Positions 34,120 through 39,297 of a stretch of DNA of 64,000 bases are shown here, piece by piece (position 1 is the first letter of the stretch; every line of letters starts with the position of its first letter). The translations under genes were made by a program, and so were the position numbers. The DNA comes from Methanoculleus horonobensis (lineage in GTDB: Archaea > Halobacteriota > Methanomicrobia > Methanomicrobiales > Methanoculleaceae): positions 1-64,000 of the forward strand of contig NZ_BCNY01000015.1 in the NCBI RefSeq assembly GCF_001602375.1, written 5' to 3'. The notes under the pieces are model-generated. The model saw only the letters and a list, made by a program, of their open reading frames with translations. It was not told where the DNA came from and ran no database searches.

Positions 34120-35958
34120 TTACGCGGCCCGCTTCAGCGTGAACCGGAACGCCGCCCCCGCATCCGGGGCGCCGGGCACCCGGTCTTCAACCCGGATCCA
34201 CCCCCCATACCGTTCGACAAGCATCCGGCAGATGAAGAGTCCGAGCCCCTCTCCGCTTCCCCGTCCCATGCCCCGCTCGAACCTGGCAAAGAGCCTTTGC
34301 TTTATCTCGTCCGGTATACCCGGACCGGTGTCCTCGACCGAAACCAGCACCTCCCTGTCCTGCACCTCTACCCGGATGGTGATCCTAACATCGGGACCGC
34401 CGAACTTCACGGCGTTGCCGATCAGGTTGATAAAGACGGTCGGGAGGAGGCCGTCCGCCAGCACCTCGATCTGCGGGTCAGGGTAGTCGATCGATGCCTC
34501 GGGGAACCTGCCGATCTCGTTTCGGATAACCGCGTCGAGGTTCACCGGCACAAGGCCGGTCTCTTCTTCGTGTATCCGCCGGACGGTGGCGACGCTCCTG
34601 AGGATATCATTGCTTCGCTCGATGCTGCCCTGCAGCTTCTCCGCATAGGTCTTCAGGTCGCCGTCGGCGAGCTCGGTCAGGAGGTCGGCATACATGCCCG
34701 AGACGTTGTTCGCGTTCCGCACATCGTGGGTCAGGATGTCGAGGTACATATGCGCCTCGTCGCGTGCTGCTTCCACCTCCGCGCTCTTCCGGGCAAGGTC
34801 TTCGGCGCGGCGCCGGAGTGCTTCTTCCGCTCGCTTGCGGCCGGTGATATCCCGGACGATCATCGTCGTTCTGGCGTTTCCGTCTCTGTCCGTGTAGAGT
34901 GCAGACGATATCTCAACGGGGAAGACGGTCCCGTCTTTGCGCCGGAATCGGAGTTCCCCCCTGAACTGCCCTTTCCTGGCTCTCTCCTCAAGGCAGGATC
35001 GGAGGCGCGGGTCCGATGGATCCATGACGCCGTCCCTCCCTGCACGGATGAGTTCCTCTTCGGTCATGCCGAAGATCCGGCAGGCTTCACGATTTGCGGC
35101 ATAGATTGAGCCGTCGGGAGCGGTGAGAAGGACTGCGTCGATGCTGTTCTCGACGAGGTTCCGGTACTGATCCTCGTTCTCGCGGAGGGCTTCTTCTGCT
35201 CGCTTGCGGTCGGTGATGTTACGTGCATTCACCACGAAACCCCGGACAGCCGGCTCTTTTACAAGATTGATACCGATTACGTCGAAGTTCAACCACTCTC
35301 CTGATTTGTGCCGAAGCCGAACTTCGAGGGTGACCCGGTCCTCCGGATGGGCGGCAACAGTGGAGAGGGCATTCGTCACCAGCGACAGATCGTCGGGATG
35401 CGTCAGTTCGATGGCATTTCGCCCGATGAGTTCTTCGGGCGCATATCCCCCGACCTGCCGCACCGATGGGCTTGCATACGAGATGGTTCCGCCTGCATCG
35501 AGAACGATGACGATATCGGAGGCGTTCTCGGTGAGGAGCCTGAATCGTTCTTCACTCTGCCGTAACGCGTCCTCGACCTTTTTGCGCTGGGTGATATCTT
35601 TTCCGTATACGTTCACGTAGTGCAGATCCCTTAACGGAACAAATGTGAGGAGGTAGGTCTCTGCACCTACGCGGTGCTCCACCTCCTGCCGGACACCGGA
35701 CGCCAGGGCTGTTTCTGCTATCGCGGCAATATTTTCGGGGACATCCGTGCCGGGGCCGGCGAACGCCTCTGCAAATGCCGCCCGGGCTGCGCTGTTGGCA
35801 TAGATGATGGTGCGCCCGTTGTCAAGCCGCAGGGTTGGATTAGGATTTTCGGCAGGGAACCGGGCAATGGACTGGAGTTCCTCCTGTGCCCGCTTGCGCT
35901 CCTTGATCTCGCTCTGGAGCCGGATGTTGGCACGTTCGAGTTCGGCAGAGCCGCGACC
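34120..35958 (-). pseudogene. 5'-truncated multi-PAS sensor histidine kinase
   Basis: The frame is open from 35958 to the stop at 34120 (about 612 codons) but has no usable ATG upstream; a GTG at 35682 is the first listed start. Reading it from 35958 shows a coiled coil (ELERANIRLQSEI), a PAS domain running across that GTG, at least two more PAS domains, a dimerisation helix with the phospho-acceptor His (YLDILTHDVRN) and a catalytic domain (NLIGNAVKFGG and VEDTGPGIPD). The kinase part is intact, but the N-terminus is cut at about 35945-35958, where a second, oppositely oriented kinase begins. Confidence 0.75.
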
Positions 35959-36623
35959 TTAAAGAGGCACGGAACGAGGCGAACCTGTACCTCGATATCC
36001 TGACCCACGATATCGGGAACACCGAGAACGTCGCGAACCTCTATGCCGACCTGCTCCTCGGCACGCTCTCGGGGGATGCTGCCATATATATCAAGAAACT
36101 CAAGCGCAGCATCGATAAGAGCATCGAGATCCTCGGAACCGTCTCCACCATCCGCCGGATCCATTCCGGGTCGCCGGAGATCAAGGCGATGGATCTGGAT
36201 GCGGTCATCAACGAAGAGATCAGCCACTACCCCGGGAGCAGCATCCGCTACGAAAATGCCCCTGGACTGATTCTTGCCGACGACCTCCTCCGGGAAGTCT
36301 TCGCAAACCTGATCGGCAATGCCGTCAAACACGGTGGTCCCGATGTCGAGATCACGATCCGGACGGAAGATGCGGGGGGGGTTGTCCGCGTCTCGGTCGA
36401 GGATACCGGCCCGGGCGTGCCGGACGACCAGAAGGAGGCGATCTTTCATCGATACGAGCAGCAGAAGCGGGGTGTCGGGGAAGGGCTGGGGCTCTACCTG
36501 GTGCAGATCCTGATCGACCGCTACGGGGGGAAGGTCTGGGTCGATGACCGGGTGCCCGGCCGGCCAGATGGGGGGGCGGCGTTCGTCTTCACGCTCCAGA
36601 AGGCTTCACCCGTCCCCGGGTAG
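35946..36623 (+). pseudogene. 5'-truncated histidine kinase, C-terminal half
   Basis: The plus-strand frame, open from 35907, encodes a kinase linker (RDLKEARNEANLY), the His box YLDILTHDIGNTENV and a full catalytic domain (NLIGNAVKHGG, VEDTGPGVPDDQ and GLGLYLVQILIDRYGG). It has no sensor domains and no start before an internal ATG at 36189, which would omit the His box. It is a paralogue of the minus-strand kinase it abuts head to head. Either it is a rearrangement remnant, or the join is an assembly fault. Confidence 0.75.
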
Positions 36624-36669
36624 GATCGCGACCCGTCCGCCCGTCTCCTCGATACGGGGGCCTACGGGC

Positions 36670-38115
36670 TCACCTGAGCCACCCAATCTTGTAAAAGATC
36701 CAGCCGACCCCGAGCATGGCGATCACCGTCCAGACGGTCACCTGCCAGAGGTAGAGGCTGAAGGGGACATCAAGGGTGTTCATCCCGAGCATCTGGCCGA
36801 CCAGCGTCGGGATCAATACGAGGGCGGAGAGGACGGCGATCACCCGCATCGCCCGGTTCATCTCGTAGGAGACGGTGTTGATGTGGACGTCGATCAGGGT
36901 GAGGAGCCCTTCCTGGATGTTCCCGGCGGTCTCGTGCAGGTAGTCCGTCTCGCTCGCGAGGGCGTCGAAGATACTCTTCTGCCCCGCCCATGACCCCGAA
37001 ACGGAGATGCTCCGCGCGAGGACCGTTGTCACCTCCCGCTCGTGAAAGAGGCTCGAAGCAAGAGCGCTGCTTATCCGCTTGAGGTGGAAGACGGAATCGA
37101 GGAAGTTCTTCGGCATCTCGTTGCTCGGGGTGCCCTCGAGGCGCAGCAGCTCGGCTTCCAGTTCCACGAGGATCGCGGCGTAGTTCTCGTTGATCCGGTC
37201 GAGGGCTCCGTAAAGGACCCGGGAATGCAGGGGAACCCCGGGAAGGGCGTTCGCACCGAGACCTGCCTGGACCTGCTCGAAGAAGTGGTCGCGTGCCTTC
37301 GCGACGGTGGCGATCGTTTCACCCCGGTTCACGACGATGAGCCCGATCTTCGTCACGCCCGGAACCGGGGCACCTTTGCGAACGCGGCTGATCTGTTCCG
37401 GCTCCTGCACGAAGATGAGCCGGGTTGCCCCGGCGGAGGTTATCCCCGGGTGGGACGGTCGCATCAGCCGGCTCTCGAAGTAGACGGCGGGAACCCCGAG
37501 GAGTTCGGCGAGGATGGGAAAGTCCGGCCGGGAAACCCCGGAGAAGTCGAGCCAGACCCCGGCCGGGGCGCTCTCGAGGTACCGCTTCGCCTCCTCGGAG
37601 GTGAGGTCGAGCACGTCTCCGGTCCCCCCCGCCATTCCGCGGATCCGCATCGTCGAGAACGGTGGCGGTGCAGGCTCCAGGGCAGTGACCTCCGGCTCGA
37701 TCCGCCGCTCCACTGACCGCCCGCCGGCCGCCGCCACCCGAACCACCCGGAGGAGCCGGAGCGCGGGGGACGACCGGGCAAGGGTCGAACCGGCCACCGG
37801 AAGCACCTCGAGAGCCGGGAGCGTGATGATGACGAGGTCGAGGAGGTGCCAGCGGTCCAGGAAGTGGCTCACCCGGTTCTCCGCAAGGCCCAGTTTGAGA
37901 AAGTACTCGATGACGAAGATGGCGATGATCAGGGTGTCGGCGAGGTTGAAGAACTCGATGACCGGTTCCGGGAGGGCAAAGAGGAGGGGCAGGATGACGA
38001 TCGGGGCCATCACCAGGCCGAGGAAGATCATCAGGCCGTCGGAGAGGATGCGGTAGACGAGATCCCGTGCGGCCGCCTTTCTCCCCTTCTCCCCCGAAGA
38101 CCGGAGCCCCTGCAT
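36670..38115 (-). CDS. Voltage-sensor-like domain fused to a CorA-type channel
   Basis: About 481 residues; the ATG at 38115 has an AGGAGAGG site upstream. Residues 28-48, 57-77, 90-108 and 118-130 are four hydrophobic segments like a voltage-sensing S1-S4 unit, and the fourth has Arg every third residue (R120, R123, R126). Residues ~150-481 are a CorA domain with a long helical funnel, two final membrane helices and the selectivity motif GMN at 444-446. CorA proteins carry Mg2+ (or Co/Ni). An N-terminal voltage-sensor-like unit is not part of standard CorA. Confidence 0.8.
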   Translation of the reverse strand: MQGLRSSGEKGRKAAARDLVYRILSDGLMIFLGLVMAPIVILPLLFALPEPVIEFFNLADTLIIAIFVIEYFLKLGLAENRVSHFLDRWHLLDLVIITLPALEVLPVAGSTLARSSPALRLLRVVRVAAAGGRSVERRIEPEVTALEPAPPPFSTMRIRGMAGGTGDVLDLTSEEAKRYLESAPAGVWLDFSGVSRPDFPILAELLGVPAVYFESRLMRPSHPGITSAGATRLIFVQEPEQISRVRKGAPVPGVTKIGLIVVNRGETIATVAKARDHFFEQVQAGLGANALPGVPLHSRVLYGALDRINENYAAILVELEAELLRLEGTPSNEMPKNFLDSVFHLKRISSALASSLFHEREVTTVLARSISVSGSWAGQKSIFDALASETDYLHETAGNIQEGLLTLIDVHINTVSYEMNRAMRVIAVLSALVLIPTLVGQMLGMNTLDVPFSLYLWQVTVWTVIAMLGVGWIFYKIGWLR

Positions 38116-38257
38116 ATCGTTCCTCTCCTGATGACCGGACAAGAGCCGCGGATGAGGTGAAGGGGTTTCGTCGTGTATATATACCCTGGGTTGCGGGCCG
38201 CTGGAGACTGCCCTGGTGAGCGCAAGAGTTATCCCTTCCGTCTCCAGCAGTCGTTGC

Positions 38258-38654
38258 ATGCCGATAGACGCTTTTCGCATCGACACTCCCGGGCAGGTCC
38301 TGGACGACCTCCGGGTTCGGCTCCGCGAGACCCGTCTCCCCGACGAGGTCGAGGGTTCGGGCTGGGACTACGGCACGAACCTCGGTTACATGGAAGAACT
38401 GGTCGACTACTGGCTGAACCGGTTCGACTGGCGGGCTCGCGCTCCCCCCGAAGGATATCGACCCGATTCCGCCGCGGGAGTATGCGGAGCGCAACCTGAA
38501 GGATATCCGGCGCTGGACGGTGCTTGAACACGGCGGCCACTTCGTGGCGATGGAGTTCCCGGATCTCATGGCCCGGGAGATCCGGGAGTTCTTCCGGCCG
38601 CTCTGTGCGACCCGGAGGGAGGCGATCCCGAAAGGAAATCTTCGTAACCCCTGA
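38258..38654 (+). pseudogene. Epoxide hydrolase remnant with internal deletion
   Basis: The first ~60 codons (TPGQVLDDLRVRLRETRLPDE, then GWDYGTNLGYMEELVDYW) match the N-terminal domain of epoxide hydrolases. Near 38436 the frame shifts, and the next ~70 codons in another frame match the far C-terminus (PPREYAERNLKDIRRWT, EHGGHFVAMEFPDL and IREFFRPL). The middle, with the catalytic Asp and most of the alpha/beta-hydrolase core, is absent. No active enzyme can be made. Confidence 0.82.
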
Positions 38655-38687
38655 AGTCGAGCTCCATGCATCGATGGGGAGAACGAG

Positions 38688-38834
38688 ATGCCGAGGCTGG
38701 TGCTGATCGATACGGCGACGGGGACGCGGATCCGCCACCGCATCAGGAGCCTGAAGCAGGCTCTGAAGCAGCAGGAGTGGTACGAGACGAAACTCGGGCG
38801 GCGGGTGCGGATCGAGAAGGTCTTCGGACGGTAG
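38688..38834 (+). CDS. Small basic protein of unknown function
   Basis: Protein of 48 residues, read directly: MPRLVLIDTATGTRIRHRIR at the start, then a helix ending GRRVRIEKVFGR. A GGGGAG site lies 9 nt upstream. It has two strands and one helix by pattern and is strongly basic. I do not recognise the family. Confidence 0.5.
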   Translation: MPRLVLIDTATGTRIRHRIRSLKQALKQQEWYETKLGRRVRIEKVFGR

Positions 38835-38889
38835 CACCGCTCCGGGCGGCGGGAAAGAATGATAGTCCTGCCGGACGTACCTGACAATC

Positions 38890-39297
38890 ATGCACGGCGA
38901 TGCGGCGGAACCGGTCTCGCTTGCGGACGCTATAGCGGCGGCGGAGGTCTCCCGCCGGGAGAAGAAGAAATACCCGGCGATTGCGGCAGGGCTTTCGCTC
39001 CTCTTCAACGGCCTCGGCCAGGCCTACAACGGACAGTTCGCACGGGGCGTCCTGGTGCTGCTCGGAAGCCTCCTCGGCCTCTTTGTCATGATCGTTCCGG
39101 GGGTGGCGATCTGGGCCTGGGGCGTCTACGACGCCTGGGCCACGGCCCAGCGGATGAACGAGGGGCTCGTCCCCTACCGGGAGACGAGTCCGCTCGAGAT
39201 CGTCGCGTTCGTGGTCGTCTGGGCGGTGACGATCTTCCTGCTCTCGGCGGCGTCGGCGATGCTGCTCGTCGCGCTGGGGCAGCAGGGGATGCTGTAG
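38890..39297 (+). CDS. TM2/DUF5683-like membrane protein
   Basis: Protein of 135 residues. A cytoplasmic helix rich in Lys/Arg (EVSRREKKKYP) is followed by hydrophobic segments containing LLFNGLGQAYNGQFARGVLVL, which resembles TM2-type proteins (GxGQxYxGxxxxG), and then a last segment. It is 3 bp upstream of the flavoprotein gene, so likely cotranscribed. Function unknown. Confidence 0.7.
   Translation: MHGDAAEPVSLADAIAAAEVSRREKKKYPAIAAGLSLLFNGLGQAYNGQFARGVLVLLGSLLGLFVMIVPGVAIWAWGVYDAWATAQRMNEGLVPYRETSPLEIVAFVVVWAVTIFLLSAASAMLLVALGQQGML

Follow-up and report, generated by a model that had tools for sequence, protein, structure and literature searches.

A voltage-sensor-like domain fused to a CorA-type channel in a family of archaeal proteins

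Does the minus-strand gene at positions 36670–38115 of this locus, in which four hydrophobic segments precede a CorA domain, encode a cation channel that responds to membrane voltage? A sequence-only reading of the DNA had raised this possibility, and here we examine it for the window, i.e., the whole 64,000-nucleotide stretch of Methanoculleus horonobensis DNA that was analysed, and for related archaeal genomes. The most likely answer is a pentameric cation channel that uses membrane voltage in its gating, with voltage gating and ion selectivity both being inferred.

The gene spans positions 36670–38115 on the minus strand, stop codon included, and is one continuous frame of 481 amino acids (P0001), as the earlier reading had it; all features of the protein given below lie on the same strand. 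Its start is the ATG at 38115, and a ribosome-binding-site-like motif visible in the sequence, GGAGAGG (38122–38128, minus strand), is located 6 nt upstream. A GTG-initiated extension of the frame to 38286 is possible; homologues begin near the ATG. About 60 bases 5′ of the ATG, at approximately 38174–38183 of the window, there is an archaeal TATA-box-like stretch, GTATATATAC. Rfam gave no match in 36400–39000 and hence no RNA leader such as a Mg2+ riboswitch.

The N-terminal part of the protein is recognized as a voltage-sensor-like domain (VSD) by sequence profiles. Residues 29–127 (37735–38031) match positions 6–102 of the 241-position Pfam profile Ion_trans (PF00520), corresponding to S1–S4 only, with an E-value of 4.8e-9 and 36.2 bits on the full protein against a gathering cut-off of 25; the first 145 residues scanned alone score 40.4 bits. 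All nine relatives scanned also exceed the Pfam cut-off, each with S1–S4 and no pore. A match that exceeds the gathering score in this protein as well as in nine relatives is not a product of chance. The S5-P-S6 pore is absent from all of these proteins, the Ion_trans match ending at profile position 102–112 of 241. The source genome encodes no other Ion_trans protein.

The AlphaFold model agrees with this assignment. An amphipathic pre-S1 helix (residues 4–23; 38047–38106) is followed by four transmembrane helices, the same number that had been proposed from the sequence: S1 (residues 26–45; 37981–38040), S2 (residues 50–77; 37885–37968), which carries D60, F67, E70 and K74, S3 (residues 88–104; 37804–37854), which carries the charge-transfer aspartate D93, and S4 (residues 117–139; 37699–37767), which carries R120, R123 and R126. 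The earlier description of S4 as having arginine at every third position holds strictly (i+3) for these three residues but for no others, apart from one further arginine that is displaced; beyond the trio, R114 lies upstream and R133 downstream. Searched against the PDB with Foldseek, the VSD model ranks NavAb, NavMs, Kv4.2 and Nav1.7 first, with a probability of 1.0 and TM values of 0.5–0.6; the E-value is only 0.025, which is weak as such, and pLDDT is modest in the S4 region. A profile built from 19 VSDs of the family and run against the PDB finds Nav, Cav and Kv4 voltage sensors with whole-chain E-values up to 2e-27 and a best single repeat of 4.8e-10. Several Nav/Cav VSD repeats are aligned, with the acidic residues of the family profile, Glu in S2 and Asp in S3, placed opposite their Nav/Cav counterparts.

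The charge-transfer center of the window protein consists of an S2 F-x-x-E motif (F67, E70) and D93 in S3. The spacing of D60, F67, E70 and D93 matches that in Kv1.2, where we take the corresponding residues to be E226, F233, E236 and D259: the S2 Glu lies 10 positions after the first acid and 3 after the Phe, and the S3 Asp follows 23 positions later. Pfam, the fold and the PDB search with the family profile thus all match residues 1–140 to voltage sensors. The N-terminal part of homologues, near and distant, is the same VSD with its charge-transfer residues, which excludes unrelated membrane helices. Neither of the two outcomes that the earlier reading had named as contradicting it was therefore observed; hydrophobic helices arising by chance are ruled out by the full-length relatives together with the profile and fold matches. 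In its S1–S4 fold, charge-transfer center and periodic S4 arginines the domain resembles the VSDs of voltage-gated channels (NavAb, NavMs, Nav/Cav, Kv4). It differs from that superfamily in having neither an S5-P-S6 pore nor an S4–S5 linker, and in being joined to an unrelated pore of a pentameric type.

A VSD without its own S5–S6 pore is also the layout of Hv1, which is further marked by a selectivity Asp at the mid-membrane level of S1 and by an RxWRxxR motif in S4. The restriction of the Pfam match to S1–S4 would therefore also suit a protein whose VSD itself conducts protons, with the CorA domain as a regulator or scaffold. We regard this as very improbable. Neither the S1 selectivity Asp nor the S4 motif occurs in any aligned family member, and an Hv1-type proton channel was rejected on these motifs; moreover, conservation within the protein is highest in the CorA pore region, and a review states that Hv channels have not been found in archaea (PMC13095418).

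The C-terminal part was described at the outset as a complete CorA domain with a GMN motif, and so it proves: within residues 150–481, residues 186–476 (36688–37560) cover positions 4–292 of the 292 in Pfam PF01544, with 104.8 bits against a cut-off of 27 and an E-value of 6.8e-30. The AlphaFold full-length model, predicted as a single chain, has the long CorA stalk helix and TM1 at residues 380–445 (36781–36978) and TM2 at residues 456–477 (36685–36750); the GMN selectivity-filter motif is read from the sequence at residues 444–446 (36778–36786). This model matches TmCorA (Foldseek E-value 3e-13) and MjCorA, the same structures that a family profile of the CorA part finds in the PDB. A G-x-N filter between the two C-terminal TM helices is present in 24 of 25 members, the remaining one having GMK. 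The cytoplasmic α/β domain, stalk helix, two C-terminal TM helices and G-x-N motif are those of the CorA/Mrs2/ZntB 2-TM-GxN superfamily, to which the fusion adds an N-terminal S1–S4 voltage sensor.

There are further differences from ordinary CorAs. The M1 regulatory site of TmCorA includes the aspartates D89 and D253 (PMC3629940). All 14 ordinary archaeal CorAs compared have Asp at both positions, whereas no family member among the 25 examined has it at either, the window protein having Ser and Ala there; the two canonical Mg2+-sensor aspartates are absent from these members. MjCorA also lacks D89 and keeps D253, so only the loss of D253 is unusual. Ordinary CorAs have an acidic loop, MPEL, behind the filter; in all family members this loop is shorter and altered. 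The filter itself drifts among relatives to GTN, GSN, GEN, GVN and GMK, and the NCBIfam CorA equivalog TIGR00383 is missed by a wide margin (64.8 versus 200.75 bits). Because of the M1 Asp loss, the altered loop, the filter drift and the equivalog score far below cut-off, we classify the protein, on sequence grounds, as a channel of the CorA superfamily that is not a CorA orthologue.

The filter drift makes Mg2+ selectivity uncertain. The varied filters, the altered loop and the low equivalog score, together with the presence in the source genome of two ordinary CorAs for Mg2+ (on another contig), would all suit a protein that is voltage-regulated but whose CorA half serves another cation, either as a ZntB-like channel or transporter or as a less selective pore. 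On the other hand, GMN is retained in the window protein as well as in several relatives, and conservation across the family is highest from TM1 up to the filter (entropy 0.92 bits). We consider another cation a real possibility, though one in which we place distinctly less than even confidence.

The sequence-only reading also suggested a survey of methanogen genomes, and the fusion is indeed present in several archaeal families (here families are denoted by f-numbers, genomes by G-numbers and loci by L-numbers). About 30 genomes, drawn from four families, carry it as a full-length open gene. A search within the genus gave full-length orthologues with 68–79% identity in twelve other Methanoculleus genomes, one of them with a stop near the end, as well as one full-length relative with 32% identity in another family of the order (f5). 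VSD-profile searches added further f5 genomes and a clade of seven genomes in f36, which belongs to another order. Family f22 contributes two copies in G675 and one in G661 that is broken up by masked bases. Both domains were found by Pfam in all nine diverse members scanned. The profile survey covered genomes of this archaeal phylum only. A scan of genome contigs showed the fusion only in Methanoculleus records or close metagenome bins, and it was not found in viral sequences (scans) or in plasmids (tblastn).

Presence within Methanoculleus is patchy, and the gene has been lost or broken in several genomes and so is dispensable. One might suppose from this patchiness and from the broken copies in G029, G043 and G064 that the gene is decaying or that the fusion stems from misannotation or misassembly. 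That supposition is hardly tenable: the survey already refutes it, about 30 genomes in four families having the gene as a full-length open frame, and dN/dS for the whole gene is 0.33. The broken copies differ in kind. In the Methanoculleus genome G029 (L018/L044), a deletion with one edge inside S4 joins the VSD to the final part of a histidine-kinase ATPase domain resembling a neighbor of the window gene; the resulting frame has 363 aa and lacks CorA. G043 (f3; L024/L070) has a decayed remnant of the VSD that is interrupted by several stops, and G064 (f3; L060) a frameshifted copy with the filter GEN.

The two halves behave as one evolutionary unit. With a profile of the CorA domain run over 393 genomes, VSD-bearing members score at least 381 bits and the next CorA, an ordinary 355-aa protein, no more than 104 bits; no member of this CorA subfamily without a VSD was found with the profile among the 393 genomes. 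Distances in the VSD and CorA parts correlate with r = 0.97. Trees of the two parts each recover Methanoculleus, f36 and f5 as single groups, and they disagree on the long-branched G050. Because the distances correlate and both trees recover the main clades, the fusion looks old, and was apparently inherited vertically or transferred as one gene, with losses.

Whether the VSD still senses voltage is a separate matter. The S1–S4 domains of many TRP and CNG channels have a non-voltage-sensing role, and the domain here could likewise keep a VSD-like fold as an anchor, an assembly element or a lipid- or ligand-binding module, with an ordinary CorA that is perhaps constitutive or Mg2+-regulated. 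Several features fit this reading. The window protein has only its three strictly periodic arginines, one orthologue has lost an S4 arginine, and the six f5 members have Gln at the positions of R123 and R126, with an extra Arg upstream; three of the six also lack the S3 Asp. Strong gating charge is therefore not universal in the family. However, R117 and R120 stay in register in f5, as R114 mostly does, most members of the family have three S4 basic residues in register, G675 has five, one at every third position, and three S4 arginines suffice for Hv1 to work. None of the 25 members departs from F67, E70 or R120, and D93 is present in 22 of 25. Constraint is also strongest in S4: the S4 region has a dN/dS of about 0.06 within Methanoculleus, the lowest value in the gene, compared with 0.27 for the VSD, 0.47 for the linker and about 0.33 for the whole gene. 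Mean entropy across the family is 1.24–1.37 bits in S1, S3 and S4 versus 2.03 in the cytoplasmic part of CorA. We therefore judge a purely non-sensing domain to be unlikely, without being negligible. The S4 arginine missing from one orthologue, in G027 (L014), is one of the periodic residues and is taken out by an in-frame loss of three residues.

Of the readings considered, we regard the best explanation as an archaeal family in which a genuine S1–S4 VSD, fused N-terminally to a CorA-type pentameric channel, makes that channel voltage-gated, and we hold it with rather more confidence than doubt. What the analysis establishes is the presence of both domains with their folds, their inheritance together, selection acting on S4 and the lack of the two M1 aspartates. 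The earlier suggestion that Mg2+ or another cation flows in a voltage-sensitive manner is supported by anatomy and conservation, which do not demonstrate it, and its Mg2+ component is weakened by the filter drift in relatives.

How such a channel might work can only be inferred. Five subunits would surround one CorA pore with five voltage sensors at the periphery, and the membrane potential would move the S4 arginines through the charge-transfer center formed by F67, E70 and D93. The protein has no S4–S5-like linker to the pore, and coupling would thus need a route through the cytoplasmic domain: S4 movement could be passed by a short linker (approximately residues 134–156) to the CorA cytoplasmic domain and the stalk helix. 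In SLC9C1, S4 couples to a cytoplasmic domain (PMC10620092), and transmission of this kind is inferred here by analogy. A hydrophobic gate would be opened or closed as a result, with the usual Mg2+ feedback replaced or supplemented. The permeant ion is presumed to be a cation, Mg2+ being the default guess for members bearing GMN; transport of Mg2+ is itself an inference. That the VSD now does the work of the Mg2+ sensor is attractive as an inference but no more than that, and TmCorA mutants of the M1 site are still able to close (PMC8865849). Our confidence is evenly divided on the fuller proposal, which puts a five-fold CorA pore, outside the tetrameric S5–S6 superfamily, under the control of five voltage sensors and has a Mg2+ sensor exchanged for a voltage sensor.

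Gene neighborhoods give no hint of the ion: no operon partner is common to different lineages, and neighbors are shared only within a lineage. Beside the window gene lie a histidine-kinase fragment with the ATPase domain only (36189–36623) and a PAS-PAS histidine kinase (34120–35682), neither of which is kept beside the fusion gene in other lineages. The divergently oriented gene at 38890–39297 encodes a small membrane protein that matches DUF5683 weakly, and homologues of it are located near the fusion gene in all six other Methanoculleus genomes compared. Four f5 genomes have, directly 3′ of the fusion gene, an orphan gene that codes for about 185 aa and has no Pfam match (L119:9257–9814, L120:9006–9590, L121:6324–6878, and also in L118), and a polyphosphate kinase 2 gene is near the pair in three of the four.

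Known VSD carriers are tetrameric channels, Hv1 and a phosphatase and, among transporters, only SLC9C1 (PMC10620092; review PMC13095418). Like the archaeal fusion, SLC9C1, the sperm Na+/H+ exchanger, has a VSD on a transporter that does not belong to the voltage-gated channel superfamily, but it is an animal, dimeric exchanger with the VSD on the C-terminal side, whereas the fusion is archaeal, with a CorA-type pore and an N-terminal VSD. Ci-VSP and Hv1 share with it a VSD without an S5–S6 pore, and Ci-VSP also the order of an N-terminal VSD followed by a cytoplasmic effector; the effector is a phosphatase in VSP, is absent in Hv1, and is an ion channel of another family here. We found no description of the VSD–CorA fusion in the open-access literature; subscription papers and domain-architecture databases were outside the scope of the search. 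The archaeal family thus appears to be previously undescribed, although with a literature scope limited to open access its priority is not proven.

The family may represent a voltage-controlled metal-ion channel of a previously unknown kind. If so, the voltage-sensor module would also have found its way into an unrelated pentameric channel, this time in archaea, and the family would offer a natural system for coupling between a VSD and a pore without an S4–S5 linker. For methanogens, it would link membrane potential to the entry of divalent cations.
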